IMG/VR virus record: IMGVR_UViG_3300030118_002047
Span: 1 to 26,372 of that record
Source of the DNA: a virus
DNA length: 26,372 nucleotides
Reading direction: 5' to 3' (one strand)
Positions 2,781 through 26,347 of the stretch are shown one piece after another. Every line of letters begins with the position of its first letter. Position 1 is the stretch's first letter. A program made the translations under genes and the position numbers. Below the pieces are notes generated by a model. It saw only the letters and a list, made by a program, of their open reading frames with translations, was not told where the DNA came from and made no database searches.

Positions 2781-4639
2781 TGATAGCTAACTCCTCACAA
2801 GGCATAGTGGAGATGATACAGCGTAAAAAAGACGCATATCAGGGTAATCCACAAGCATTACAACAGCGGTATCAGCAGAACAAACAGCTTACTGACCTGC
2901 TGGCACTGCAGCAGCTAAAAACAGAGAAAGAAGCTGCGGCACGCGACATACAGTTAAAGATGCAACAGAACCCTCAGACTATTGCACAACAACGAGAGCA
3001 ACAAGTTCTGGGGCTTATCAAGCAAGAACAGGGACGTAATCTTGGAAAAGTCACCGAGCAAGTAGGTGGCGTTCTTGGGCAGCGTCAAAAAGAAGCCATG
3101 CAACGGCGACAACGCATGGGTATGGCCCAAGGCGGCATTGTTGGGTTTCAGTCTGGCGAGATAGTAGACGGAGAAAAAGCAGAAACAATAAGTGTTGCGG
3201 ATGCTATAGCGGAGTTAGGCGAGGAAGCCTTTAACTACATAAAGGAAAATCCAGCAGAAGCTGCGCTACAGCTTGGGCTTATAGTCGTTCCCGGCGGGCT
3301 TGCCGTAAGAGGCGGATTAGCCGCATTAAAGGCGGCAGGGGTAACATCTAAACTAAAGAACCTAATGCGGGGTAAGAAGCCCGACTTTGAAGTTACTCCT
3401 AAAGGCACCGCAGTGCCTACAGATAGGTCTGGGATACTCTCTCAGTCTAAGGAAGTAGGGCCGTATTTATCTGGCCCAGTGGAAGCCGGTAAGCAATTAG
3501 TGCCTGTTGGAAGAGGGGCGCTAATAAATAGGCCCACTGCGGCTTTAACTGGTATAGGTGCCGCAAGCACTGCGCTACTTGGATCATCAGATGATGTAGT
3601 CGTTAGCGATGATAGTGCCGGTGATGACGACGGTTCGGGTTCGCAACAAAGTGACTCAACAGGCACCATTCCGGGCGTTGACACTATTGATAAAGATGAG
3701 CTGTTTGACGAGCTTAAAGTCACAACACCGGAACTAGATATAGGCACTACTAGGCAAGATGCTGCGAAGGGTATTTTAACTGACATAGGCTTAGATGAAC
3801 GAGCTGCTAGAGACCCAAGTGCAGTGCGAAAAGCCAGAATAGCTGAAGTTAAAGACGAGATGGGTCTTGCAGGGATACAAACTAGGAAACAAAGCCAGAT
3901 AGACAGGCTGCGTAGACAGCAAGAGCAACTTGCAGAACGCGATCCATTTGAAGCGTTTATAGCTGGCACAATAGGTTCCGCTCAACGTGGTGGGCCGGGA
4001 GGCTTTGCTGCAGGGTATATGGGTAAGTTGTCCCAGCAACGTGCACAGCAACGGCAAAACCTTAAAGATGAGTTTGGTATAGAGAACGAGCTTCTAGATA
4101 TTGAGCAAACTGTGTTGGCGAAAGGCATTGACAGTGCAGACAAAGCAGAACAAGTGCTGTCAGCAGAAAAACAAGCGTACTCAAACATCATGTCTAGAGC
4201 TTCTGAAGGTGATATTAACGATGCTCAACAGCAAGCAAACCGTGTGCTTGATGCAGACGTACAAAACATCAAGACGAAGCTAGATTTGCTAGGGCAGGAA
4301 ACTGATCGTGCGATAGCGTCTGCTGAACTACGCGGAGCCGCGTTAGAAGACATGCAGGAACTACTACAGAAAGAAGTAGAACGCCGTGATGAACTACTCT
4401 CACCAGTAATAACCCAATTGATAGATCAAGCGCAGAGCTTCGGTGGTGATGTAGAAGACGCAGTAAATAGAGCGGGTATAACTAAAGGCTTTATCTTGCA
4501 AGCCACAGGTATATTTGAAAGAGAAGAGGATTTATTACGCCGTATAGCAGCACTAGGGGGAGATGTTAGTTCGCAAAGAGCCGCTTTAGCCAAAGATCGG
4601 CAGCGGGTTGAGCTTATGAGTCAATACCTACAGCAGTAA
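2780..4639 (+). CDS. Large helical internal virion protein (T7 gp15-like position)
   Basis: The 619-residue protein starts at an ATG overlapping the preceding TAA by one base. Residues 1-115 are Gln-rich helices containing YQGNPQALQQRYQQN, followed by MAQGGIVGFQSGE. Around residues 155-195 a hydrophobic stretch (LGLIVVPGGLAVRGGLAALK) could insert in a membrane. Residues 265-300 form an Asp/Ser-rich linker. The rest is mostly long charged helices with coiled-coil character. The Gln-rich N-terminus plus GGIV motif is a combination I recall in marine phages. An internal or ejected protein is likely. A tape-measure role is the alternative but the size and neighbours fit less well. Confidence 0.55.
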   Translation: MIANSSQGIVEMIQRKKDAYQGNPQALQQRYQQNKQLTDLLALQQLKTEKEAAARDIQLKMQQNPQTIAQQREQQVLGLIKQEQGRNLGKVTEQVGGVLGQRQKEAMQRRQRMGMAQGGIVGFQSGEIVDGEKAETISVADAIAELGEEAFNYIKENPAEAALQLGLIVVPGGLAVRGGLAALKAAGVTSKLKNLMRGKKPDFEVTPKGTAVPTDRSGILSQSKEVGPYLSGPVEAGKQLVPVGRGALINRPTAALTGIGAASTALLGSSDDVVVSDDSAGDDDGSGSQQSDSTGTIPGVDTIDKDELFDELKVTTPELDIGTTRQDAAKGILTDIGLDERAARDPSAVRKARIAEVKDEMGLAGIQTRKQSQIDRLRRQQEQLAERDPFEAFIAGTIGSAQRGGPGGFAAGYMGKLSQQRAQQRQNLKDEFGIENELLDIEQTVLAKGIDSADKAEQVLSAEKQAYSNIMSRASEGDINDAQQQANRVLDADVQNIKTKLDLLGQETDRAIASAELRGAALEDMQELLQKEVERRDELLSPVITQLIDQAQSFGGDVEDAVNRAGITKGFILQATGIFEREEDLLRRIAALGGDVSSQRAALAKDRQRVELMSQYLQQ

Positions 4640-7600
4640 TGCAAGCTCATTCTTTAGAACAGGTACAAACGGCGATTAGGAATGCCCAAGCCGCAGGGGA
4701 TGCTAGAGCAGTAGCAGCCCTCAAAGACTACGAAGAAGACATAAAAAGAGATATAGCAATACTACGTGCTCTTGCTCCACGCGAAGAAGCTGGCGTAGTC
4801 GAGAACATTACTTCTGGAATCGGCGCAGGTATTGTTGACGTAGGTGAACTCGCGTTATTAGGTGGTGCAGCCGCACTAGAAGAAGAGGCTGAACTTGCTG
4901 CCCGCGAAAAAATTAAAGCTGGTGCTGCAGCCTTACGTCCAGAGGGCGGTGACCCCGACTCTATTAGCTATCAAATAAGCCAAGCCCTTGGGTCTATTGC
5001 AGGGATTGCTGCCGTGCCTGCCGCCGCTGCAGTTGCTGGTGCCCCCGGTGCCGCTGCTATAGGTCTTGGTGCTCTAGCTGCCGCTGGTGCTGGAGCCGGT
5101 GAAGCAAGTGAACGAGCAAGGGCCGCTGGCGCTACCGAAGAAGAAAGAGCCACGGTTACCGCGCGTGGTGCTGGTATTGGACTGCTAGACATACTACCTA
5201 TTGCAAGAGTAGTAAAATTTGCTGACTTACCTGCCCTTAATAAAATACTAGACAAAATACCTCCTGAGAAAGTCGAGACTTTTGGCGAGCGTATACGTAG
5301 TGCGGGTGTAACAGGTGGTGCAGAAGCTGCACAGGAAGCAGCGTCTAATGTGCTACAGAACTTAAATGCAAGAGAGTACGACGCTCTAGCAGAAGCATTT
5401 GACATAACAACTGCTCAAGAAGCAGCCCTTGGTGGCTCTGCAGGTGCGATATTGCAGGGGCTAGTAGACCTGTTTACCTCTCGTAAGCGCGGTAAAACTA
5501 TTGCAGAAGTGGCAGAAGAGCAGCCAGATAGCCCTGAGATTGCAGGGCTGCTTGAGTTTAGGCCAGAAGAACCCACACAGCTAGACTTACTAGGCGTACC
5601 CAAAGCACCAGAGCTAAACATTGACGAGATCCGAGCCAAGGTAGAGGGCGGGTACAAGAAGCCTTTTGCAGAGCTTACCGACAAGCAGAAAGAAAGTCGG
5701 CTAGAGTCAATAGCAAAGCGCGTGCAGAAACTTCCTCCAGAAGAACGTGCACTGTATGAAAGATCTTTAGAAGAACCTGAAGCACCTGTCCGAGAGGAAG
5801 TATCTCCTGACCAAATGGTGATACCGGGGTTAGAACCAGAAAGCACGGTTGGCCCACAACTGCAAAGGTTACTTGCACCAGAAGCAGATACTGTTGCGGG
5901 TGAAACTCTAGCACTTACCCCAGAGGGACAAGCGCTTACTAGAGAAGAAGTACTAGATCGTATTAACCGTCGAGATAGAGAACGACGAATTACGGAAGAG
6001 CCTGTGTCAGATGAGGCACGGCTAGGGCAGCAACGTGCAGCAATAGCCGCAGAAGACCAGCCTGATTTGTTCCCAACTGAATTAGCTAAAGCACGGCAAG
6101 AGGCGAGGCTCACCGCTACCGAGTCTGCAGACGTTGAAACTGCGCCAGATCCAGTGGTGGCTACAGAAGAGGCTCTGAATAGTTTATCTATCCCGGCGAA
6201 AGACCCGGTACGACAAAAACTACTAGATAAGGACTTACGAGAAACTGAGCAGCAGGACATACTTACCAAATACGCTGCTAGAAGAAGCACTTCTGGAAAA
6301 GCAAAATCCGCTATAAACAGGTTCTTAAAAGGCACACCAGAAGCGCAGCTAGAACTTGTTACCCCCACAGGTAGAAGACCCCGTGTTACAGAAGAAGTAG
6401 CCGCCCCTACGCTGATACAGCGAACAAGAAAGAAGATCGCAGCAAGAGCTAAACCGACAGAAGAAGTTACTGCGGAGCCTGCTACAAGAAGGGTTACCAC
6501 TGCACCTACAGTAAGGAAGCCCCCTGCTAGACCTCCTGTAGATGCAGAAACTCTTGCGGAGTTAGAACGGCAGTCAGCAGAACGCACTGATCCGATAATA
6601 GCTGAAGCCGCAAAAGAGAAGCGGGAGATAGGAGACCAATACAGAAAAGATCTTAGGGAAATGAAAAAACGGGTTCGTAAATCCGTGCCGTCTATAGAGC
6701 CTCGTAAGCGAGAGATAGCAGCGAGGACAGAGGAGCTATCAAAACAATACGAAGAAAAAATAAAAGCTGTAAATACAAGAACAAATGAGGCGTTTAAGCA
6801 ACAGAGAGAACGTGAGCGGGTTGCTAGAAATGAAGAGTTAGAAAGAAAGAGTAGAGAAAGAGTTGCAGCAAGAACACAGCGAGCGCCAGAAACCGAAGTC
6901 GAAGCGGAAACCACAGAAGCAGTTACCTTAAATGATTTATCTAAGGAGGAACGAGCTGCACGTAACACAGAGTTTACGAAACTTGTCGCTGATAAGAAAA
7001 AGGAAGGACTTACTCAAAAGCAGGCCGTAGAAGCTGCCCGAGATGAGCAAGCCATAAACGACCAAGATAACTTGCTTGGGGCCAGCAACATTGCATATAA
7101 CGCAATAGACGCACCCATACCTGACGCAGCACTACGTGCAGCTAAGAAAGGCGAACTGCGGCGTGCTCTGCTGGAGATAGCTGAGACTGTAGACGATCCG
7201 ACTACTAAGAAGATAGCTAGAACGCTAGCAAACTACACGTTTACCACTAAGATCAGCGTGCGGCCTAGTCGTTCTATCATGGGCAAAAGCCCAGTTACGG
7301 GGGAAGTCGTACCTTTAGACGGTGCGTTTAATCCAAAAACAAACGAAATACTTCTAGACGAAGAATCTGGCACATCTGTCGGCATTCTGCTGCATGAGAT
7401 GACACACGCGGCCACAGATAACGTGCTGGAGAACAAGTCACACCCAAACACAAAGAAGCTGCAAAGACTCTACGACGAGGTGAAAGAACAACTTGGGGAT
7501 GCCTATGGAGCAACTAACTTAAAAGAGTTTGTAGCAGAAGCATTTACCAACGCTAAGTTCCAAAACGACCTAGCGAAAATATCGCCCAAGGGTAAGCAAC

Positions 7601-10600
7601 TAACCTTTTGGGAGAATCTGTTACAGATACTATCGGACTTTTTGGGTATTCAGAGGTTTGACCGCAGTGCTAGAGGTAAGGCGTTTAGACGCATTCAAGA
7701 GATACTAGCGCCTGCACCTGAGTTTAGATATGGCCCGCTGCTGGCTGCATCAGGTAGGCCCGATGATGTGCGTAGAATCTTTGAAGAGATAAAAGGCCAA
7801 AAAGCTGGGTTTAGAACCGCCGAAGGTAGAGCGACTGCAAGAAAGAAACTATCGAAAGAGATAGAAGCTATCCTGACAGACCCACAAGTAGGGTTTAAGA
7901 AGTACGCTACTAAGGTATTTGGGTTTCTGCCAAACGGATCAATACAAGACATCGCCGAAGCTCGTGGCATACCCAACGCAAAAAGAATACTAGATGCCAT
8001 AGAGACACAGCGTGGGCGTTTGACGGAGGCAGAACAGGTTACTAGACAGACGTTAGAGCCTGTATTCCGGTGGGCCAGTAAAGCACCACAAGAAACAATG
8101 AAGGTCTTCAATAACCTTGTTTACGAAAGCACCATAAACGAGGTAGACCCCAACCTAACACCTGCTGAAGCCAAGAAGAAATACGGCGATCAAACGGTGG
8201 AAGGAACTTCGCAACGGAAGATAGATAAATATAACGAGTTACGTACACTATTTCAAAGTGCAGAAATGGGGCCAGACGGAAGAAGAGCCTATGAAGAGTT
8301 GCGTGGATTCTACAGAGATCAGTACAACGCGCTGATAGATTCTTTGCGGGGGCGTCTTGACGATCTACCTGTAGGAGAGACCACAAGAACTAACCTTAAA
8401 AACGAACTGCTGGCTAAACTGCTAGAAAACACAGGTAAGGAGCCATACTTCCCACTCACTCGTAGCGGCAGCTATTGGTTAGCCGTGCGGCAAAAAGAAG
8501 GTGATAGATCTAATGCTGCGGTATTTGCTTTTAACACGCCGGGGGAACGGCTTGCCGCTATGGAGTCTTACGAGAAGCAAGGCTTTGAGGTTGATTCTTG
8601 GGATAATAGTAAGTCGTCTTCTTATAGAAACCCACCGCCGGGGTCATTTGTTTCTGATGTATTGAAGATATTAGATCTAACAGACCAGACCATAGACCCT
8701 ACAGTAAAAGAACAAATAACTAGGTTGTTCATTGAAGAGCTACCGGAATCTTCTTTTGCAAAAGCGTTAATCAAACGTAAGAACACCGAAGGCTACGACA
8801 TGGATGCAGTAGACGCAGCCAGAACAAAAGCCTTTGATTTGGCGCGACAGACAGAACGCATCAAGAACAGCAACGCTATATCGCGTGAGCTAGATCAGAT
8901 GTTAGAGCAAGTTGAAGCACAGGGGCTAGGTAAAGACAGTGCTAGAAATGCACAGCTAATCGAAGAGCTTAGAAGTCGTGCACAGTTTGCGATACAGCCC
9001 ACCGTGGAAGGCTGGCCTAAACACGCTAACCGCTTGGCATTTTTGTACACGATAGGATTTAACACATCTTCGGCACTTGTGAACCTATCTCAAATACCGT
9101 TGTTTACGTTACCTATGTTGAGCGGTAAATATGGAGCCAAACAAGCCACTGATGCAGTAAAAAATTCTACGCTGTTGTTCCAAGGTGCGCCTATGAATAA
9201 GGCAAGCCGCACTTTATATGGTGATGTAAGAACCCCGGATAGCATAAAACAAAAACTTGCAGAGGACGGGTTATACGGAACACTGCAAGATATGTCTCTC
9301 AAGAGCTTGGATAACTACTATACGTTTACTAGAGATCCAAACAGCGGCGACTTACTCTTTTCTGTAAGAGAAGATCTAGAACTGCCCAAAGATAAAATCA
9401 CTGAGTTAGAAGAGTTAGCACCGCTGATCCAACTGGCTTCTAGACGAGGACACCTAAACTCGTCATTTCTCGCGGATACACTAAGCGTAGATGGTGCAGG
9501 GCGCAAAATGAGCCGTTATGACACCATGACAAACGCCTCTGCACTTATGTTTCATCAGGCAGAATTGATGAACCGACAAGTAACTATGGTAACGGCTTAT
9601 AAGCTAGAACTAGATAAACTTACAAACGGTGATCCAAGCAAAGCGACGGCAGAGCAAAGAAAAGAAGCAGCAGATAAAGCGTTATATGAAACTCAGTTAG
9701 TAAACGGCGGTGCTACTTTAGAAACCGGCCCTCGACTTGCAAGAGAAGGTATAGGTCGTGTTGCGTTGATGTACAAAAACTACGGCATCCAAATGTACTA
9801 CGCAATGGGCAAAACAGGTTATGAGGCTGTTCAAGTATATGCCGACAGTTACAGGAAAGATCTTGAATCAAAAGGTATGGCGAAGAGTGCGATAGACGCG
9901 CTCGTAAAAACAGCCAAATCAGAAGCGTTCAAACAACTTGCAGGGGTGCATTTATCCGCATTGTTGTTGGCTGGGGTGCAAGGATTGCCGTTGTACGGGG
10001 CGATTTCGGCGCTATACGACGCATTTACGGACGATTACGACGAAGATTTCGATACTTTTGTACGTAGCTCGTTGAATAATGAGGCCATATACAGAGGAAT
10101 ACCAACAGAACTCCTTGGTATTGACGTATCTGAGCGCATCAAGTTGACTGACTTACTCGTTGAAGCAGACAGGTTCACGTCTGATCCATCTCCCGCAGAA
10201 ACGTTCATGCACTATCTAGGTGGCCCTGCGTGGAGTGTTGTATCCAGAGCGTATCGTGGGGGCGAAAAACTGATAAATGCAGAAAACGGCAGGGATCTTA
10301 TGCGTGGAGTTGAAGACCTACTGCCCGGAGCAGTGCGTAACTTGTATCAGGGTGCAGTTCGTTACCCTATGGAAGGAGGGATACGTAACAAACGTGGGGA
10401 CTACATATACGATGACATGTCAGCAGGAGAGTTGGCAGTAAAAATACTAGGGTTCCCACCAGCCGAATATACGAGAAGCGAAGCAGAAAAGCGGGCAGTA
10501 AAGAACATAGAGACTGCGGCCACGCGAGAAAGAGGCCGACTACTAAACAGCTTCTACGTAGCTACCAGATTCGGCGAGTTTGATGAAAAGAGAAGAATAC

Positions 10601-10785
10601 GTCGAAAGATGAACGAGTTTAACGACAGTGATGCTGTCAGGATAAACCCCAAACTGCGTATAGATGACAAAACAATAGAACGATCTCTAGAGAGTCATAA
10701 ACGCACGACCAAGGCCAAGATGTACAACGGCGTTACACTATCTAAAGGCGCACAAGATCTAGTAGATGACGTAGGGTTCTTTTAG
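4639..10785 (+). CDS. Giant virion protein with zincin metallopeptidase-like domain (T7 gp16-like position, polyvalent-protein type)
   Basis: The protein is 2048 residues, longer than the 1318-residue T7 gp16. ATG overlaps the upstream TAA by one base and no Shine-Dalgarno sequence is seen, so reinitiation is likely. Residues 1-45 (SLEQVQTAIRNAQAAGDARA) are a short helical domain. Residues about 113-160 are Ala/Gly-rich and hydrophobic. Residues about 290-790 are Glu/Arg/Pro-rich and probably flexible. Residues about 840-985 look like a zincin: H919-E-M-T-H923 with a downstream EFVAEAF (E963, E967) as possible third ligand. FRYG near residue 1028 recalls the PLxRFG motif of phage polyvalent proteins. 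Hydrophobic segments lie near 1465-1493 and 1768-1796. No lysozyme or transglycosylase motif was recognised. It probably enters the cell with the DNA; the peptidase substrate is unknown. Confidence 0.65.
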   Translation: MQAHSLEQVQTAIRNAQAAGDARAVAALKDYEEDIKRDIAILRALAPREEAGVVENITSGIGAGIVDVGELALLGGAAALEEEAELAAREKIKAGAAALRPEGGDPDSISYQISQALGSIAGIAAVPAAAAVAGAPGAAAIGLGALAAAGAGAGEASERARAAGATEEERATVTARGAGIGLLDILPIARVVKFADLPALNKILDKIPPEKVETFGERIRSAGVTGGAEAAQEAASNVLQNLNAREYDALAEAFDITTAQEAALGGSAGAILQGLVDLFTSRKRGKTIAEVAEEQPDSPEIAGLLEFRPEEPTQLDLLGVPKAPELNIDEIRAKVEGGYKKPFAELTDKQKESRLESIAKRVQKLPPEERALYERSLEEPEAPVREEVSPDQMVIPGLEPESTVGPQLQRLLAPEADTVAGETLALTPEGQALTREEVLDRINRRDRERRITEEPVSDEARLGQQRAAIAAEDQPDLFPTELAKARQEARLTATESADVETAPDPVVATEEALNSLSIPAKDPVRQKLLDKDLRETEQQDILTKYAARRSTSGKAKSAINRFLKGTPEAQLELVTPTGRRPRVTEEVAAPTLIQRTRKKIAARAKPTEEVTAEPATRRVTTAPTVRKPPARPPVDAETLAELERQSAERTDPIIAEAAKEKREIGDQYRKDLREMKKRVRKSVPSIEPRKREIAARTEELSKQYEEKIKAVNTRTNEAFKQQRERERVARNEELERKSRERVAARTQRAPETEVEAETTEAVTLNDLSKEERAARNTEFTKLVADKKKEGLTQKQAVEAARDEQAINDQDNLLGASNIAYNAIDAPIPDAALRAAKKGELRRALLEIAETVDDPTTKKIARTLANYTFTTKISVRPSRSIMGKSPVTGEVVPLDGAFNPKTNEILLDEESGTSVGILLHEMTHAATDNVLENKSHPNTKKLQRLYDEVKEQLGDAYGATNLKEFVAEAFTNAKFQNDLAKISPKGKQLTFWENLLQILSDFLGIQRFDRSARGKAFRRIQEILAPAPEFRYGPLLAASGRPDDVRRIFEEIKGQKAGFRTAEGRATARKKLSKEIEAILTDPQVGFKKYATKVFGFLPNGSIQDIAEARGIPNAKRILDAIETQRGRLTEAEQVTRQTLEPVFRWASKAPQETMKVFNNLVYESTINEVDPNLTPAEAKKKYGDQTVEGTSQRKIDKYNELRTLFQSAEMGPDGRRAYEELRGFYRDQYNALIDSLRGRLDDLPVGETTRTNLKNELLAKLLENTGKEPYFPLTRSGSYWLAVRQKEGDRSNAAVFAFNTPGERLAAMESYEKQGFEVDSWDNSKSSSYRNPPPGSFVSDVLKILDLTDQTIDPTVKEQITRLFIEELPESSFAKALIKRKNTEGYDMDAVDAARTKAFDLARQTERIKNSNAISRELDQMLEQVEAQGLGKDSARNAQLIEELRSRAQFAIQPTVEGWPKHANRLAFLYTIGFNTSSALVNLSQIPLFTLPMLSGKYGAKQATDAVKNSTLLFQGAPMNKASRTLYGDVRTPDSIKQKLAEDGLYGTLQDMSLKSLDNYYTFTRDPNSGDLLFSVREDLELPKDKITELEELAPLIQLASRRGHLNSSFLADTLSVDGAGRKMSRYDTMTNASALMFHQAELMNRQVTMVTAYKLELDKLTNGDPSKATAEQRKEAADKALYETQLVNGGATLETGPRLAREGIGRVALMYKNYGIQMYYAMGKTGYEAVQVYADSYRKDLESKGMAKSAIDALVKTAKSEAFKQLAGVHLSALLLAGVQGLPLYGAISALYDAFTDDYDEDFDTFVRSSLNNEAIYRGIPTELLGIDVSERIKLTDLLVEADRFTSDPSPAETFMHYLGGPAWSVVSRAYRGGEKLINAENGRDLMRGVEDLLPGAVRNLYQGAVRYPMEGGIRNKRGDYIYDDMSAGELAVKILGFPPAEYTRSEAEKRAVKNIETAATRERGRLLNSFYVATRFGEFDEKRRIRRKMNEFNDSDAVRINPKLRIDDKTIERSLESHKRTTKAKMYNGVTLSKGAQDLVDDVGFF

Positions 10786-10883: not shown

Positions 10884-11105
10884 TCACATGGTTCTCCAAA
10901 CACGAACACCTAATTTGTCACTTTCAGTAACAACTTTTACCGTACATTCCCAGCCAAAACCAGTGATTATTTTCAGTATTTGTTGTCTTGCCAAGTAAGT
11001 ATTTATGCAAGGCACGAACACTGAACTGCTGATAGCCATGCTGGGCCAATCAATTACGATACGTATTCCATCAGGGTTTATATCATCAGTTCTGAGTACG
11101 CCCAC
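10884..11105 (-). CDS. Small conserved-type phage protein of unknown function (73 aa)
   Basis: GTG start at 11105, sharing one base with the TAG of the primase-helicase gene (TAGTG), which suggests coupled translation. The protein has IVIDWPSMAISSSVFVPCIN, then a helix (YLARQQILKIITGFG) and ends in GVRVWRTM. I recall small phage proteins with an IDW...FFVPC...R.WR layout near replication genes, but none with known function. It is the last gene of the leftward operon. The bounded layout and coupling support a real gene. Confidence 0.6.
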   Translation of the reverse strand: MGVLRTDDINPDGIRIVIDWPSMAISSSVFVPCINTYLARQQILKIITGFGWECTVKVVTESDKLGVRVWRTM

Positions 11106-13945
11106 TACTCGCTGTCTATTGAAAAGTTCACCACGATCACATTTGTAGGTGGCAGTCTCATTTGTGTGCCTTTACTCAGACGCATCTTAGTGCGCTTGCC
11201 TTTCAGCTTTTCAATGAGGTCTTCTACAAACCCTGCATAGTTTATCTGTTGTTTGCCACACCATTCTTTTAATGGTTTAGGTAACAAGTACATGCGTTTT
11301 ATGTCTGTCTCGTACCTTGCAACAAACTTAACTTTTGGTACAGCGTCAGGCACCACAAGGGAATCTAACCCGTTTGCAAGTATGTTAGTCTCATTTAGTT
11401 TTCGTAAGTCATCAGTACTTTTTATCCATAACACGTTACCGTAGTGTTCCATGATGTAGTCATTTAAGACTTGCTCTACTGATGCTCCCATTTCACTTAC
11501 GCTCTTCTTGTTTTCTTTTAATAACCTTACAACCCATTTGGTGATGACCTCCATATTGTAGTCTATCAACCCCAACTTCTGAGCGATCATGCCACCAGTT
11601 ATAGCGCACGCAGCTCCCGCTGACCAAAACCTATTTTCTGGAGCCAACTCAGCACGGCGGTCTATAGTTTGCTGCACGATACGAAGCTGTCCTTTGTAAT
11701 GATCTATGTGATTCATTACGTGCTGTATAAAGATCGGGCCTGCATGTCCATAGTGCTCTTCTATGTTCCTTTCAAAATCGTCGGTAAGTTCTTTGTCCTT
11801 TGACTTTGAAAAGATCTGCCTAGCGCGATGCTCTAATATCCTCTGTGCTTCTGCTTTCGGCCCAGCTTTACACAACGATATTTTCTCAATCGCACTCATG
11901 TTGCCAGTGGTGCAGCACAACAGTTTCCAAGGTTCACCTCTTGTACGTTCTAGGTTTGAGCCGTTACTCATACGCCCGCGCTGTTGCCCGCTGGTTAATT
12001 GATACGCAAGACCACTCATCTCCTTCTCAGGAGTATTTGTCATCTCGTCAATGTAAAACGGTAGATTATGCAGCACCTCTCCACGATTCATCTTAAAAGC
12101 GGTAGTGTCATTATCGTCCACCAATGTCCCTTTAAAGTGCCCCCACACTGATGCAGCCACTTTCATAGCTGCTGTTTTACCTGCACCGCCAGCTTTATCG
12201 TGTACGTGCATGGTGCCACAGTTCTGCGGTAAGAATTGCATGAGCGGAGAGCCAAAAGCAGTGCACACAATATACTGGTGCATCTCCATACCCTCTCTTG
12301 ACAGGTAGAAATTAGCCATCTCCTGCCAACCTTCTAACGTGCCTTTTGTTTTGAAAGATGGGTAAGACTGCGATGTAGCTCCAGTCATTGGGTTATAAGA
12401 AATCTTATTGGGATGTATCTCTTTATCACCCACCACAAAACTACGACAGTCATCTGATGTCCACCCGTATTGCCGGTGTGCTATGTCTGCTACAGATTTT
12501 GCCTGTAACTCGTTAACCCATGTAGTCATATATTGCTGCAAGTCATCCTGTTTCAAAACGGCAACGCCCATCGCTGCCATATTCTTTCTAAATTCTTCTC
12601 TAGATGTAAGTGCTGTTAGGGGTAATGTGAACTCTCGCACTCCATCTTTAGGTAAGTGTAACCGCACCACAACCATTTCACCGTCTTCAACATCATGCAA
12701 ACGCCGTGTTACGTAAATGTCGTTTTGGTAGATTACCCGTTCATCTGTCTCACCGTCTGTATTTGTGCTTCTAACGAATACCCCACCGCTAGCTCCACGA
12801 AAATACGGACGCGGGTATGTGGGTATAACATGTTCTGGTGTATCATCTACTAATGCCAACTCCGGGGAGTCTGTAAATTCATCTAATGATTCCGCAGCGT
12901 TTCCACTATTAGTGTGATCTTCAGATGCTTTGAACCTACGCCCAAGCACGATTGGAGACTTTATTTTGCCCCAGTGAGGACAGTCTGTGCAGACGTTTGG
13001 ATTATTCTCGTCAAATGTTGCGCACCTGTACGGGCCTTTTACCAAATCCTTTTTAGTCTCTGTTAAATGTGGAACATACTCAGGGTGCTTTGCAGACAGC
13101 ATGTGCGCTGCCTTGTCCCCATCACGACAGAACTTTGTAATAGATAACCCTGCTCTCCACATTGGCTCCGTAGTAACTTCTTGGTTAGCTACTATCAAAC
13201 CAAGTTGCGCACAGCCATTACCGTTATTTGTTTTGACTAGAATGTCTTTGAAACTGAACTCACTAGATTTTAATAAGAACTCAGCAAAAGCCCCTGCGCT
13301 CCCCTCTTCATGCTTTGTAGGAACTGTTATCACCGGCCCACCGATGGCCTCCGAAAACCAATCGAAATCTACAGCTTTGGGAACACTGCTCAGAAGCTGC
13401 ACTGGGGCGGGTGAATCGGGCTTGTAGTTATGCGTGCCTAGAACACGTAACACTCTAGCTGCGTCTGCGGGGACACTGGTGTCTATTTCAAACTTATGTT
13501 CTGCGCATAGGTTCTTTAGTCTTTGTGCTACGGGTTTCCAATCCGTTACGCTGACCGCCTCGCGCAGCATCCAATAGACGTGTACGCCTCTACCAGAGCT
13601 AACTATAAGTGGTTTTGGTAATTTAGTTGCTGCACAGAAACTTTGCAGTTCTTGAATTACGTCTACCTGTGTTGCGTGTGGTTTGTCGGCCCCACAATCT
13701 AAATCCAAAAAGAAACTTTGTATGTACTTGGCGTCTACTGCCTTACGAGAGTTTTCCTTACAGAAAGAACTCAACGCAAAATATACGTCTAACCCCGCCC
13801 TGTCTGCTTCTATAGCAGCACGTTCTAAATCGTCTATATCCGTGTAAGACGTTTGCTCAAGGGTTCCTGTTTGCGGGTTGATTCGCAGTAAAACGTAAAT
13901 TCCTTCGGGGGGCAGCAGACTCCTTAAAAATAATTTTGTATCCAT
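11105..13945 (-). CDS. AEP primase fused to DUF927-like helicase (primase-helicase)
   Basis: A 946-residue replication protein likely to prime and unwind at the phage fork. The N-terminal archaeo-eukaryotic primase-type domain shows FFLDLDCG (D81, D83), SSGRGVHVYW (residues 117-125, H122) and VLRVLGTHNYK (residues 165-175), matching the three usual AEP motifs. A cysteine cluster with VCTDCPHW (about residue 320) may bind zinc. The C-terminal helicase has Walker A GGAGKT (about residue 585), Walker B FYIDEMTN (about 632) and a downstream TTGN sensor-like motif. The layout resembles phage DUF927 helicases. ATG start is preceded by AGGTG at six bases. It follows the SSB gene after a terminator-like hairpin, so its expression may be set separately. 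Confidence 0.85.
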   Translation of the reverse strand: MDTKLFLRSLLPPEGIYVLLRINPQTGTLEQTSYTDIDDLERAAIEADRAGLDVYFALSSFCKENSRKAVDAKYIQSFFLDLDCGADKPHATQVDVIQELQSFCAATKLPKPLIVSSGRGVHVYWMLREAVSVTDWKPVAQRLKNLCAEHKFEIDTSVPADAARVLRVLGTHNYKPDSPAPVQLLSSVPKAVDFDWFSEAIGGPVITVPTKHEEGSAGAFAEFLLKSSEFSFKDILVKTNNGNGCAQLGLIVANQEVTTEPMWRAGLSITKFCRDGDKAAHMLSAKHPEYVPHLTETKKDLVKGPYRCATFDENNPNVCTDCPHWGKIKSPIVLGRRFKASEDHTNSGNAAESLDEFTDSPELALVDDTPEHVIPTYPRPYFRGASGGVFVRSTNTDGETDERVIYQNDIYVTRRLHDVEDGEMVVVRLHLPKDGVREFTLPLTALTSREEFRKNMAAMGVAVLKQDDLQQYMTTWVNELQAKSVADIAHRQYGWTSDDCRSFVVGDKEIHPNKISYNPMTGATSQSYPSFKTKGTLEGWQEMANFYLSREGMEMHQYIVCTAFGSPLMQFLPQNCGTMHVHDKAGGAGKTAAMKVAASVWGHFKGTLVDDNDTTAFKMNRGEVLHNLPFYIDEMTNTPEKEMSGLAYQLTSGQQRGRMSNGSNLERTRGEPWKLLCCTTGNMSAIEKISLCKAGPKAEAQRILEHRARQIFSKSKDKELTDDFERNIEEHYGHAGPIFIQHVMNHIDHYKGQLRIVQQTIDRRAELAPENRFWSAGAACAITGGMIAQKLGLIDYNMEVITKWVVRLLKENKKSVSEMGASVEQVLNDYIMEHYGNVLWIKSTDDLRKLNETNILANGLDSLVVPDAVPKVKFVARYETDIKRMYLLPKPLKEWCGKQQINYAGFVEDLIEKLKGKRTKMRLSKGTQMRLPPTNVIVVNFSIDSE

Positions 13946-22120: not shown

Positions 22121-22345
22121 TCAGATGTAGACCCAAAATTTATCCACCGCCGAGCGCATCCCTACGCCCGACACTGGTGAACTTTTCGGCTGCATAATCG
22201 ACAGAGCAAGTACCCGATTCTTAATTTCATCAGGCAAATGCTCTGGACTATCGTAGACACCTTCATACGATGTTTCAATAGAAAAAGTATCAAGTGACCA
22301 GACCTTACACTTATCTGTATCGTATGACAAGTCTACGTAATACAT
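22121..22345 (-). CDS. Small phage protein of unknown function (74 aa)
   Basis: ATG lies 16 bases after the stop of the 317-residue gene. The only ribosome-site candidate (AAGG) overlaps that stop and is rather distant. The protein reads MYYVDLSYDTDKCKVWSLDT, then a helix (LPDEIKNRVLALSIMQP) and ends GVGMRSAVDKFWVYI. The aromatic ends suggest a small alpha/beta fold. I do not recognise a family. Its place fits the operon and no other frame competes. Confidence 0.55.
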   Translation of the reverse strand: MYYVDLSYDTDKCKVWSLDTFSIETSYEGVYDSPEHLPDEIKNRVLALSIMQPKSSPVSGVGMRSAVDKFWVYI

Positions 22346-22361
22346 GGAGTTACTTACTACC

Positions 22362-23315
22362 TTACAGCGCTGGGACTTGAGAAATGACTACAAAGTACAA
22401 GTTATCTCGTACTTTCATACCCACGTCTAACACCGCATCGTTAACGTCCATAATAGACAACGAGTTTATGCGCTGCTCCAACTCAGGAAACTCGCCGACA
22501 CGGAAACACCTCACAAGTGCTGTCTCCTTGTGATCGTAGTCCGATAATCTGTCAGACCAAATTACAGTGGCATCGTTCTCTTTGCAATGAACAAATACAA
22601 CTTTGCTGGAATCGTGGGTATCCTTGAAGTTCTCTATGGTGTTCTGTGCGTCATATATCTGCGTAATCGTATCCGCAACATCTGGTGCGTTCTGCTTCAA
22701 CGCCTCAAACACTACAGGGTTAGTCATTGCAGCAAACGCATTGGAGCGCAAGAAGGGCTTACCAAACCCAGCCCCAGACACCGCTTTAATCAGATCATCT
22801 AGGCCGCTATCTAGCTCTGTCTTTTTATTATGAATCGCGGTCTTGAACTCGTAGGTATGCATCTCCGCTATCTCGCCCAACGTGCGGTTGTGCAGAACAC
22901 CTAACGCCTTCTTGACTGCTGTAGCTTTCGACTTGCTGTGAATAGTTTCACTGCTGTCCTTTTTGTTGTTGACGTGCGGTGACGTAACACCAAATACCTG
23001 ATACGTCTTTTGGTCAGCGTACCCTTGATTGATGGTCTTGTTCTGAGTGCTGAGAAACCCCATCGGCATCAGATCACCCTGCTCGTAAACCCAGTAGTTA
23101 GGATGACCGTGAATGGTTACTGGTTTGTACGTAGCAAACCGTATATCGCGTGTGTGCAGTCGGCCACGTAACTTGTCCCGCACTTCTTTAACGTAGTCAA
23201 AGTAGTTTCTGTCCCAAGCATCATATGATTCGTAGCTTGTCTTATACACTTCATCTAGATCTACTTCATGTAGATCCTCTACCCAGTGCTGATATGTTGA
23301 ACTTACAAACGTCAT
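22362..23315 (-). CDS. Unrecognised 317-residue phage protein downstream of a regulatory gap
   Basis: ATG follows GTAAGGGAAACAAAA, in which AAGGGA is the likely ribosome site. The N-terminal 70 residues are acidic and aromatic (YESYDAWDRNYFDYVKEVRD). The middle has MPMGFLSTQN, YQVFGVTSPHVNNKK and SKATAVKKALGVLH. The C-terminal part contains VVFVHCKENDATVIW and ends VRDNLYFVVISQVPAL, which reads as beta strands. No catalytic signature, repeat or signal peptide was found. It is the first gene after the palindrome/DnaA-box gap, so it may head a transcript, possibly early. Function unknown. Confidence 0.6.
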   Translation of the reverse strand: MTFVSSTYQHWVEDLHEVDLDEVYKTSYESYDAWDRNYFDYVKEVRDKLRGRLHTRDIRFATYKPVTIHGHPNYWVYEQGDLMPMGFLSTQNKTINQGYADQKTYQVFGVTSPHVNNKKDSSETIHSKSKATAVKKALGVLHNRTLGEIAEMHTYEFKTAIHNKKTELDSGLDDLIKAVSGAGFGKPFLRSNAFAAMTNPVVFEALKQNAPDVADTITQIYDAQNTIENFKDTHDSSKVVFVHCKENDATVIWSDRLSDYDHKETALVRCFRVGEFPELEQRINSLSIMDVNDAVLDVGMKVRDNLYFVVISQVPAL

Positions 23316-23422: not shown

Positions 23423-23617
23423 CTAGTCTTCTTCCGCTTCTTCTGTCGTGCTTGTAACGAACCAGAACGGAACGTAAAGCAGTGCAGTCGCCATCGGAAA
23501 AGCGATTACCGGAGTGAGGCCGATACCCTCGTTCATATACTCCAGACCTAAGAACGCCATAGCGCCAGATAACCCAGCGCATGACATCGAAACTAATACT
23601 GTTATGTATGAGTGCAT
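23423..23617 (-). CDS. Two-helix small membrane protein
   Basis: The ATG at 23617 is preceded by TAGGAGATAGAT, a good ribosome site overlapping the stop of the peptidase gene nine bases upstream. Its 64 residues contain two hydrophobic helices, about residues 3-26 and 33-54, joined by a short GLEYMNEG-type loop, with an acidic C-terminus (TTEEAEED). The size and topology would fit a holin, but no endolysin is nearby and the accessory context suits another membrane role. Holin remains an untested alternative. Confidence 0.65.
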   Translation of the reverse strand: MHSYITVLVSMSCAGLSGAMAFLGLEYMNEGIGLTPVIAFPMATALLYVPFWFVTSTTEEAEED

Positions 23618-23626
23618 ATCTATCTC

Positions 23627-24010
23627 CTAAAAATTAACTTTTTCCCAAAAGGTATTTACTGGCCTGTATCTACAGTCCCATATATCAACCACGTACCCAT
23701 CTTCGACCGCCGTTAAATGGCCGCTATTCCTTACGACTGCCACGCCCTCAAAGTCCCAATCTCTGAGCTTGATTAGCTTGCCGTTATCATCGCGTGGACA
23801 TTTGCGTTTAACCAAGCCTTGATCTTCGGCGTATGCCATCCAGACTTTATCGTGATCTGGATAAGCACCTATCTCTATGCCAAGGTGCATCAACTCGCTA
23901 AACACTTTTTTGTATGGCTTGTTGAGCACAATGCTGAGAGATCTTACGGTGCAATCGTCCTTCCAAGTGCGGCAGATCCTGTCGCCGGTATGCCATTCGT
24001 GATACTTCAT
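23627..24010 (-). CDS. Small papain/C39-like cysteine peptidase family protein
   Basis: A 127-residue protein with ribosome site AGGGGATAG before ATG. DDCTVRSLSIVLNKPYKKVF supplies the probable catalytic Cys20 at the start of a helix, SGHLTAVEDG supplies His98, and VVDIWDCRY supplies Asp109 or Asp112. This Cys-His-Asp order with the ..C.vRsl.. and h..av.dg..D.wd layout matches small C39/papain-like proteins common in phages. Substrate is unknown. It follows the zincin-VWA gene by nine bases and is probably cotranslated with it. Confidence 0.7.
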   Translation of the reverse strand: MKYHEWHTGDRICRTWKDDCTVRSLSIVLNKPYKKVFSELMHLGIEIGAYPDHDKVWMAYAEDQGLVKRKCPRDDNGKLIKLRDWDFEGVAVVRNSGHLTAVEDGYVVDIWDCRYRPVNTFWEKVNF

Positions 24011-24019
24011 ATCTATCCC

Positions 24020-25237
24020 CTAAAGTTGATCTGCTGTTAGATGTACTGTCTTGCCCACCGGAGGCTTGGCTTTGGGGTTGTCCTTGACACACCAGAGAAC
24101 TGGCACGTTCCAAGTACCCCATTCGTTACCCCACATCTCACCATCCGTAAAGACGATCACGCCTTCGGGGTTGATCTGGTGTTCCTGCATGTAATCAGTT
24201 ACACACTGTGCACTAGTGCCACCGCCGCCTTTGGGTTCAGTAAGCTCAGTAAAGTTGTCCATCGTGTCTTCGTCGTAGAACTCGTCACCGACAACTGAAC
24301 TGCCCCAGTACAGAATCCTGACCCCACCGATATTGAGCGTAGAACAGATAGACTGCATCTCGGCTAGGAATGCGGGTGCGTCATACAGGCATGACCCTGA
24401 CGTGTCACACGCAAGCACGATCTCGGTGATCTTGTCACTAAGCGCACTGGGCATATAGATGTCCGAACCGATGTAGCGACGATTGGGTTTGGCCCAAGTG
24501 CAGTAGTCACTACCTGTACAGACAGACTGCGCAAAGTCGAGTGCTACCTGCGTCCAGTCAATCTGTGGCTGTAACACCTCATCTAGAACTGGATCGTGAC
24601 CATGCCCCGCTTTGCTGGCACTGAGAACACCTTGGCGTATGGCTTCATCAACCTCGCGCTCTAGGTCGGTCTTCTCTACATCCGTCATCTCTTCGGCTGC
24701 TTCCCAATCGTGTTCATCCAGCGATGAATACCCGCCTTGACCCCCACCGCCTTGTGGCTGGTCGGTATCGTCATCATCTGTGAGCATGTCAAAGATAATC
24801 GGCGGCCCCATCCATGTGCCATCAGGCAACCGGAATCGGTCATCATACAGGCCCACGGCTGGCATCTTGGCGAATCCGTCTTGGCGGTTTTCATCCACCA
24901 GCTTGCCATTGATCGTGAAGTCACACGCCTTGTTCGTTCTTGTACGTGACTTGTCCCACAGATGCTTCCACGTTATCAGGTGCTTGAAGATCATGTGATA
25001 GCACTCATGCAGCACGACGAACCGTAGCTCTGGGTCAGTCAGTATCTCGATGAACTGCTGACCGAACTTAACGTCACGCCCGTTGGTGCAAGCAGTCATG
25101 TCGGGGTCATCGACCACTTCATACTTTGCCATCATTATGATGCCAGCCATCGCCATGTATCTGGGATGGCCGATGCAAGCAACACGCGCTTTATCCAGCC
25201 GCTGCTGGGCACTTAGTTGTGTAGTTACTCCGAACAT
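24020..25237 (-). CDS. VWA-like protein with putative metallopeptidase domain (DUF2201-type), MoxR partner
   Basis: The 405-residue protein has an N-terminal metallopeptidase-like domain with H77-E-C-Y-H81 in VVLHECYHMIFKHL, an acidic Gly-rich linker around residues 160-190, and a C-terminal von Willebrand factor A-like domain with D278-T-S280-G-S282 (MIDAS DxSxS) and FTDGE near residue 360. This two-domain layout matches the VWA-like/metallopeptidase family usually paired with MoxR AAA+ ATPases. A strong GGGAGGT site stands before ATG, nine bases after the ATPase stop. The pair may act as a metal-dependent chaperone or protein-remodelling machine. Substrate is unknown. Confidence 0.8.
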   Translation of the reverse strand: MFGVTTQLSAQQRLDKARVACIGHPRYMAMAGIIMMAKYEVVDDPDMTACTNGRDVKFGQQFIEILTDPELRFVVLHECYHMIFKHLITWKHLWDKSRTRTNKACDFTINGKLVDENRQDGFAKMPAVGLYDDRFRLPDGTWMGPPIIFDMLTDDDDTDQPQGGGGQGGYSSLDEHDWEAAEEMTDVEKTDLEREVDEAIRQGVLSASKAGHGHDPVLDEVLQPQIDWTQVALDFAQSVCTGSDYCTWAKPNRRYIGSDIYMPSALSDKITEIVLACDTSGSCLYDAPAFLAEMQSICSTLNIGGVRILYWGSSVVGDEFYDEDTMDNFTELTEPKGGGGTSAQCVTDYMQEHQINPEGVIVFTDGEMWGNEWGTWNVPVLWCVKDNPKAKPPVGKTVHLTADQL

Positions 25238-25246
25238 GTTACCTCC

Positions 25247-26347
25247 CTAAACTTTGTCCGCTGCGAACATCCAGCCGTTCTCTGCGCAGAACTTCGTCCA
25301 GTTGGCGTTCTTGCTAATCATGGAACGGTTGGGGTTCTTGGGGTTTCTGACCGCATGGGCAAACAAACCTTTCTCGTCTTGGTCGAGCCGGTTGAGATAG
25401 GTCACGTAGGCATCCACGCATTTGCTGTCGATGTCCGACAACATCCGAGTGATGACCATGCACCGTGCTGGCCCCGATGTGGGTATCATCGCGCTATCGG
25501 GTGATTGCTTGATGGAATCCAGCGTGGGCAGTTGATCTGCTAGTCGAATGAATGTCATCAGGTCAGTAGCCGCGCTGTAACCAATCGTACCTATCAATGC
25601 AGCGGTCAGTGTCTGGTCGTCCATGTTTGCACGATTCTGCACAATGAATGCCGCTTTGGTGACAGACCGTGGCGTGGTACATGCCACCCGATCCGTTGCG
25701 CGGGGATGGTCGATAAACGTATTGTCTTCTGGATTTTCAACATCGCGAAAGTCTTGGAACACTTTGTTCTTGTTCTCCAAGACCCAGCCAGAAACAATCG
25801 GCTCCAGATCATTGGGTATGGCGTAGTCTTCTACCCACTGCACACCGTGGGGTGATCTAAGCTCTATGCAGGTCATGCGGTTGAGTGCATGTGCAGGTAA
25901 CAAGTCACCCAGCTTCTCTACCCCAAGGTTGCCGGTAGAGATGACGATGGAGTCTTTGTGTAACTTGTACTGCGCAAACATTCGTTCAAGCCCGAGCCGC
26001 ATACACGGTGTCTTCACTGTCGGCGAAGCCTTGGGTAGCTCGTCCAACAGAATAATCAGTGGCTTGTTCAAGTGCAGACCCAGCGACTCGTTGGCTACAA
26101 AAGAAACACTGTCACCCTCTTCTGCATCCTTGAACCGTGGAATCGCTAGGTCACCCGCTTCTAGCATGGTTGTGTCAACGTAGCGCGGCTCGTGTGTTGG
26201 CAGTTTCTCAGCCAGCATTTGTAACAGCGTAGTCTTGCCCACACCCTTGAGACCTTGGACGTGCACCCAGTTGGTCTTGCCGATAGCCATGATTAGCTCC
26301 ACGACTTGATCGTGATTGAGTGCGTACATTCTTGATAGATTGCTCAT
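25247..26347 (-). CDS. MoxR-type AAA+ ATPase
   Basis: The 366-residue ATPase has Walker A GLKGVGKTT (residues 32-40) and Walker B LIILLDELP (97-105, D102/E103), then a sensor-1-like VISTGN and an arginine-bearing LNRMTCIELRSP segment. The order and spacing fit MoxR-type ATPases. C-terminal residues 210-366 form a helical lid-like region. AAGGGA precedes the ATG. The next gene encodes the zincin-VWA partner, the usual MoxR arrangement. The two together likely remodel a protein or insert metal. The gene is complete and its promoter probably lies beyond the right edge. Confidence 0.8.
   Translation of the reverse strand: MSNLSRMYALNHDQVVELIMAIGKTNWVHVQGLKGVGKTTLLQMLAEKLPTHEPRYVDTTMLEAGDLAIPRFKDAEEGDSVSFVANESLGLHLNKPLIILLDELPKASPTVKTPCMRLGLERMFAQYKLHKDSIVISTGNLGVEKLGDLLPAHALNRMTCIELRSPHGVQWVEDYAIPNDLEPIVSGWVLENKNKVFQDFRDVENPEDNTFIDHPRATDRVACTTPRSVTKAAFIVQNRANMDDQTLTAALIGTIGYSAATDLMTFIRLADQLPTLDSIKQSPDSAMIPTSGPARCMVITRMLSDIDSKCVDAYVTYLNRLDQDEKGLFAHAVRNPKNPNRSMISKNANWTKFCAENGWMFAADKV

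Follow-up and report, generated by a model that had tools for sequence, protein, structure and literature searches.

A MoxR-like AAA+ ATPase and its zincin-VWA partner at the head of a phage replication operon, with a removable cysteine-peptidase-like neighbour

The virus record IMGVR_UViG_3300030118_002047 is a genome fragment of 26,372 bases, which was analysed over its whole length and is called the window here. Close to one end, three adjacent genes on the minus strand encode an AAA+ ATPase, a partner with a metallopeptidase-like domain and a VWA domain, and a small protein resembling a cysteine peptidase. An initial annotation, made from the sequence alone, had interpreted them as one cluster with a role in protein remodelling or host takeover. 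The locus therefore raises the question of whether the three genes act together and what the phage would use them for. The results indicated that the ATPase and the VWA protein form a widely recurrent phage pair that heads a replication operon, while the third gene is a removable passenger and no part of the ATPase/VWA machine. The pair consists of two genes:

25247..26347, minus strand: AAA+ ATPase, probably MoxR/midasin-like, N4 gp24 family, 366 residues (assigned from phrog_1297, its motifs and midasin)
24020..25237, minus strand: 405-residue protein with a predicted zincin-like metallopeptidase domain (residues ~10-116) and a C-terminal VWA domain (~267-405), DUF2201 / N4 gp25 family

The ATPase was matched by phrog_1297 over nearly its full length (residues 5-360, E-value 1.1e-40). 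Its motifs comprised Walker A (G35-K38), Walker B (D102-E103), sensor 1 (N140), the Arg finger (R157) and R227; the Walker A and B motifs, sensor 1 and an arginine in the sensor-2 region were present in all 32 aligned ATPases and the Arg-finger position in 31 of them. The closest solved relative of the ATPase profile was midasin, with weaker matches to NorQ, CbbQ and CobS, and ClpB and ClpC were matched too. The window protein itself fell below the Pfam cut-offs, and 20 of the 32 relatives were recognised by the dynein-related AAA_5 model and four by MoxR models. The profile comparisons and the VWA partner, which is the strongest argument, suggest that the ATPase is MoxR-like. The ratio of nonsynonymous to synonymous change against near relatives was low (dN/dS 0.023/0.157), and tblastn found the protein in 373 phage records at less than 60% identity, N4 gp24 among them.

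In the partner protein, Pfam recognised DUF2201_N, a putative metallopeptidase domain (E-value 1.8e-17, 64.3 bits against a cut-off of 23.2), and DUF2201, a VWA-like domain (E-value 2.7e-11, 44.1 bits against a cut-off of 26.4), and phrog_1314 matched residues 7-401, again near full length (E-value 3.6e-71). HECYH occupied residues 77-81 and DTSGS residues 278-282, and the metal ion-dependent adhesion site (MIDAS) was completed by T341 and D365. Across 43 diverse members, H77, E78, H86, N102 and D106 were invariant, as were the MIDAS residues D278, S280, S282, T341 and D365; H81 was missing from one row, the cause being an alignment gap only. The combination of HExxHxxxxH and DxSxS was also found in bacterial homologues and in all 12 distant phage proteins examined (N4, phiFa, Presley, CRP-7, RHph_TM3_14A, PA5oct, CR8, GAP32, G, SCTP-2, Pag-Yong1 and Av-05). 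The invariant glutamate of HExxH argues that the domain may be a working peptidase. An AlphaFold2 model had a mean predicted local distance difference test score (pLDDT) of 83, and VIA-align superimposed its VWA part on the VWF A2 domain (Z 13.4, root-mean-square deviation 2.3, 135 residues); these matches spanned residues from about 240 to 405 only, and the zincin fold is assigned from the sequence. The dN/dS ratio against near relatives was again low (0.020/0.118), and tblastn found the protein in 485 phage records at less than 60% identity, including N4 gp25, whose gene adjoins that of gp24. A search of the literature on the function of DUF2201/COG3864 returned nothing useful.

The ATPase and VWA genes of the window lie on the same strand, separated by 9 bases. 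Among the 99 VWA loci counted, the window included, the ATPase gene was upstream of the VWA gene in all 92 that had more than 184 bases of upstream sequence; the other seven are not real exceptions, because they have 184 bases or fewer. More distant phages kept the order, often with small genes in between, and in the Vequintavirinae phage Av-05 a distance of about 4 kb separated the two genes, which lay on opposite strands. The pair occurred in jumbo phages, Vequintavirinae, cyanophages, a Thermus phage and bacterial chromosomes. In the class to which Spiribacter salilacus belongs, 105 of 369 sampled genomes had a VWA homologue, and the ATPase gene adjoined the VWA gene in nearly all of the bacterial loci examined. 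The co-occurrence far exceeds a chance neighbourhood, and the Pfam and PHROG E-values, together with the low dN/dS, show that the window genes are likewise more than chance.

Phylogenetic trees placed the window proteins within a supported phage clade (98/89 for the VWA protein, 99/94 for the ATPase). The enclosing clade, with support of 100/100 and 100/99, added Spiribacter, Chthoniobacterales and two copies from metagenome-assembled genomes, and the main gammaproteobacterial clade was separate from this larger clade (100/100). The deep branching order is unsure because several distant phages are on long branches. As judged from these trees, the window pair belongs to an old, mostly-phage clade rather than being a stray acquisition from bacteria. 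Several elements of the initial annotation were thus borne out: the MoxR-VWA interpretation agreed with the profile comparisons and the nature of the partner, both motifs that it had singled out in the partner were found, the recurrence in other phages that it had left to be looked for extended across many phage groups, and the random bacterial carry-over that it had considered was not what the trees indicated.

It was already known that gp24/gp25 are core genes of the Schitoviridae (PMC4193335, PMC7650795), that the N4-type pair, recognised since 2009, combines an AAA and a vWFA protein (PMC2784036), and that a zincin-VWA protein can accompany MoxR, an architecture described in 2021. The present analysis adds a lineage whose gene content is unlike that of N4, shows that in many of its members the pair is placed in the replication operon, identifies the peptidase-like gene as a passenger and brings in the GVGxR-type genes described below. 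The pair belongs to the core of a large family of lytic phages and is widespread beyond it. Two labels in circulation need correction. The designation 'HNH endonuclease' for PHROG 1314 (phrog_1314, and also in RefSeq, e.g. NC_008720 gp25) is misleading; the Pfam domains, the motifs and the fold favour a zincin-VWA protein. The description of N4 gp24/25 as rIIA-/rIIB-like (PMC9525291) is misleading, the annotated RIIA of N4 being gp33. The gp25 of the CRISPRi-ART paper is a gene of phage PTXU04 and not N4 gp25.

The genomic context of the pair was surveyed in the 61 relatives whose downstream sequence reached 4 kb or more. Following the pair on the same strand were VRR-NUC in 60 of the 61, a DNA polymerase in 48, an exonuclease in 36 and an SNF2 helicase in 28. 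Five proteins encoded on the structural strand of the window were sought near the pair in the same relatives, in flanks of up to 10 kb, and none was found. Rhizobium phage RHph_TM3_14A had a similar order (ATPase, metallopeptidase, a 257-residue and an 83-residue protein, DNA polymerase, exonuclease, VRR-NUC, SNF2 helicase and primase), and in Presley the pair was immediately followed by a helicase and a DNA polymerase. The gp24/25 genes of N4 are of the middle class (PMC4193335). The pair therefore heads a replication operon in the window lineage, a position which suggests action early to middle in infection, during replication.

The genes that follow the pair in the window, and the element that carries the first of them, are:

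23627..24010, minus strand: accessory cysteine-peptidase-like gene, 127 residues, phrog_3754, in a variable slot
23615..24021, minus strand: cassette with flanking AGGNGATAGATATG direct repeats (24008-24021 and 23615-23628)
23423..23617, minus strand: 64-residue protein with two hydrophobic stretches, present in locus L002 and not found in locus L004

The initial annotation correctly described three adjacent genes spaced by roughly ten bases; the open frames were in place, and the gaps between the VWA, peptidase-like and 64-residue genes were 9 bases each. The membrane protein with two helices that it placed behind them corresponds to the 64-residue protein, which has the two hydrophobic stretches and lies just outside the range that had been given for the cluster. 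In L002, where the VWA protein is 96% identical to that of the window, the peptidase-like gene was absent, leaving an exact empty junction with the 64-residue gene 9 bases past the VWA gene. In L004, the slot after the VWA gene was filled by an unrelated 100-residue frame. The repeats that flank the gene in the window, AGGGGATAGATATG and AGGAGATAGATATG, were the sole two exact matches to the pattern in the window, and short flanking repeats of this kind would offer an easy route for gain or loss of the cassette. Eight of the ten records with close relatives of the peptidase-like protein (60-91% identity) held neither the ATPase nor the VWA gene; three span 54-65 kb, and the ten include fragments, which cannot prove absence of the pair. 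More distant relatives were found in Geobacillus, Lak and other phages. Residues D19, C20, R23, H98, D109 and D112 were conserved in the family and plausibly fit a papain-like or C39-like active site. The C39-like assignment was thus plausible for the motif (D19-C20, H98, D109/D112) and was not confirmed for family or fold: no peptidase match was obtained with Pfam for ten members of the family, and an AlphaFold2 model built from ten close sequences was of low confidence (pLDDT 54) and gave no Foldseek hit at E <= 0.001 and no VIA-align hit at Z >= 8. The tight spacing and common strand in the window, and two loci (L099 and L100) that carry the peptidase near a divergent pair, would favour one functional unit made up of the ATPase, the VWA-zincin protein and the C39-like peptidase. 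The empty site in L002, the different gene in L004 and the mostly pair-less records instead identify the gene as a passenger; the empty site largely refutes the cluster of two peptidase-type folds, which is hardly tenable.

The remainder of the window defines the phage that carries the pair. The minus strand encodes a Gp2.5-like single-stranded DNA-binding protein (SSB), a DUF927 primase, an SNF2-type helicase, a PD-(D/E)XK exonuclease, VRR-NUC and a small family-A DNA polymerase, and the plus strand has a head-tail adaptor/portal-like match, a DNA-ejection-like protein and a protein of 2048 residues, a gene set of podovirus type. An N4-type set (virion RNA polymerase (vRNAP), the RNA polymerases RNAP1/2 and the N4-type polymerase and primase) was not seen in the 26 kb of this fragment, nor was any N4 hallmark besides the ATPase/VWA pair, and over this length the gene content does not resemble that of N4. 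No relatives at the DNA level were found among named phages. The upstream neighbour of the ATPase gene is not visible because the record stops 25 bases beyond its start. The primase is encoded at:

11105-13945, minus strand: primase-like protein, 946 residues, with a strong DUF927 match and a weak match to a LigD-type prim-pol

It had only six relatives in phage records; one further phage aside, they came from Pseudomonas phage Rollin and Rhizobium phages. None of the 49 annotated features of Rollin, the nearest by primase, is named as the ATPase or the VWA partner, no separate profile search having been made. The second half of the 2048-residue protein (4639-10785, plus strand) resembled very large phage proteins (phrog_11358, phrog_10089); one family matched by this protein bears the label DarB-like antirestriction, and Pfam gave no match.

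Several known systems resemble the pair. The window proteins and N4 gp24/gp25 agree in their families over nearly the full length, in gene order, motifs and location in a middle or replication region, but are only about 23-25% identical, and the gap between the genes is 167 bases in N4 and 9 in the window; the replication proteins also differ, since the window phage has the SSB, DUF927 primase and small polymerase listed above and shows no vRNAP. In group 2.2 jumbo phages, a chaperone pair of MoxR and an N-terminal metallopeptidase-vWA protein was described in 2021, for which virion assembly with peptide processing was proposed (PMC7824862). The domain architecture is exactly that of the window, whereas the podovirus-type genes and the replication-operon setting of the window differ and lend virion assembly no support. 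An AAA-DUF2201 operon that is common in the chromosomes of Gammaproteobacteria and occurs in other bacteria shares the order, HExxHxxxxH and the MIDAS, and forms a well-supported separate clade. Acidianus two-tailed virus (ATV) p618/p892, likened to the pair by design and not by sequence comparison, belong to an archaeal virus and have no peptidase domain. The principle of a MoxR protein with a VWA partner is shared with NorQ/NorD, RavA/ViaA, CbbQ/CbbO and CobS/CobT, whose targets are cellular enzymes. To our knowledge, the VWA partners in these pairs belong to another family, of which a zincin domain is not a feature. The vWA-MoxR conflict systems (VMAP, iSTAND, FtsH, beta-propeller) have the MoxR and vWA core in common with the window. 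The VWA domain of the window protein runs to its end (267-405 of 405) with no effector at the C-terminus, and no third component of the conflict-system type was recognised downstream, the record ending 25 bases upstream of the ATPase. A search of the PADLOC defence library gave no meaningful match for the pair, and the link to conflict systems drawn in the initial annotation was not substantiated.

We see about an even chance that the pair is a phage branch of a MoxR AAA+/DUF2201 zincin-VWA machine, with N4 as the prototype, that carries out ATP-driven remodelling, possibly with clipping, in the replication phase. The family, motifs, pairing and synteny were observed directly. By analogy with NorQ/NorD, RavA/ViaA and similar pairs, an ATPase ring would dock with and drive the VWA-zincin protein, the MIDAS of the VWA domain would grip an acidic patch of a target protein, and ATP hydrolysis would remodel the target or its complex. 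NorQ is a hexamer whose ring, according to a model, is plugged by the NorD VWA domain, and the target, unlike docking, required the MIDAS (PMC9976466). The HExxHxxxxH domain could also cut the target, a step suggested by the motif. Judging from gene position, the machine would act early-to-middle on a phage or host complex of replication and not on virion parts. The replication-operon position and the strict conservation of the zinc-peptidase motif make a concrete test possible in N4 and argue against copying the virion-assembly label. No report on the function of the ATPase-VWA pair was found in the literature.

Several points weigh against action in the replication phase: 1) genome position is a mere proxy for timing, 2) structural genes beyond the surveyed flanks would escape, 3) gp24/25 are reported to be missing from some of the smaller N4-like vibrio phages (PMC9525291), which makes the pair non-essential in certain backgrounds, 4) virion assembly was proposed for the jumbo-phage pair of the same architecture (PMC7824862), 5) ATV p618/p892, viral MoxR and VWA partners without a peptidase domain, were shown experimentally to interact and to function in tail development (PMC4124505), and 6) the PA5oct ATPase (L113 6079-7194) was flagged in electrospray ionization tandem mass spectrometry, as were nearby structural proteins, and may be virion-associated. 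The last three would fit a virion-assembly chaperone with peptide processing, acting in the folding or maturation of tail or head proteins; in roseophages a second structural module also lies near gp24/25 (PMC4193335), and the GAP32 pair is a few genes away from a head-completion gene. Against such a role, the pair leads the replication operon in the window lineage with none of the five window structural proteins nearby, and the N4 pair has middle-gene timing (PMC4193335). One report counts ten virion gene products in N4 and 14 in LIT1/PEV2, and its passages on them that were examined do not name the pair (PMC3715699). On balance, a virion-assembly function is somewhat unlikely.

The absence from some relatives of a pair otherwise found in lytic phages (PMC9525291) would be expected of host-dependent functions, and could mean that the pair has a defence or regulatory protein of the host as its target, which it would remodel or clip. 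A related operon with a GVGxR-type gene in Spiribacter salilacus is set amid DrmA/DrmB/DrmD-, GajB- and IetA-like genes, which is the sole hint for the host-takeover or anti-defence role envisaged in the initial annotation. Set against this, the pair is core and not accessory in the Schitoviridae, is near-constant in the window lineage and evolves slowly under purifying selection; the PADLOC result was negative, and a single island is an anecdote. Counter-defence is accordingly quite unlikely. A metal- or cofactor-insertion chaperone, comparable to CobS/CobT, NorQ/NorD and CbbQ/CbbO and maturing a phage or host metalloenzyme, would explain the two-part design and the weak ATPase profile matches to NorQ, CbbQ and CobS, but no such metalloenzyme target was recognised among the window genes, the zincin domain sets the window protein apart from those VWA partners, and this function is very unlikely.

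Two further minus-strand genes of the window are relevant to the Spiribacter operon:

22362..23315, minus strand: fast-evolving, syntenic gene for a 317-residue protein, whose C-terminus (236-310) gave a weak GVGxR-type match (independent E-value 0.015)
22121..22345, minus strand: stand-alone GVGxR-type protein, 74 residues, a kind of gene also found directly after the pair in locus L131

The GVGxR-type domain has about 75 residues and the pattern LP...R.A.L....GVGxR...FWV, and it gave no named match in Pfam or PHROGs. Most of the lineage has a member of the 317-residue family downstream of the pair, with identities of 13-20% as against about 45% for the pair, and 42 of 78 large relatives showed the domain. 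Near the pair in N4, phiFa, G, CRP-7, RHph, Pag-Yong1, GAP32 and Presley, no significant homologue of the 317-residue protein was found. In Spiribacter salilacus C176 (L131 4893-7455, L140 and L141), the phage-type operon is inside a chromosomal defence island, which also has HEC-05-like genes, and a small GVGxR-type gene directly follows the pair (held-out E-value 8e-7). This gene may be a third component with a role in conflict, or may simply reflect traffic through the island. It is distinctly unlikely that the pair is the motor of an unnamed multi-part phage system in which GVGxR proteins serve as the changing target or adaptor; if so, their recurrence in the Spiribacter defence island would point to conflict between phage and host or between phages. 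In Planktothrix phage Pag-Yong1 (L118 25453-28634), a gene for a 300-residue protein comes after the VWA gene, and next is one annotated as the anti-CRISPR AcrVA2.

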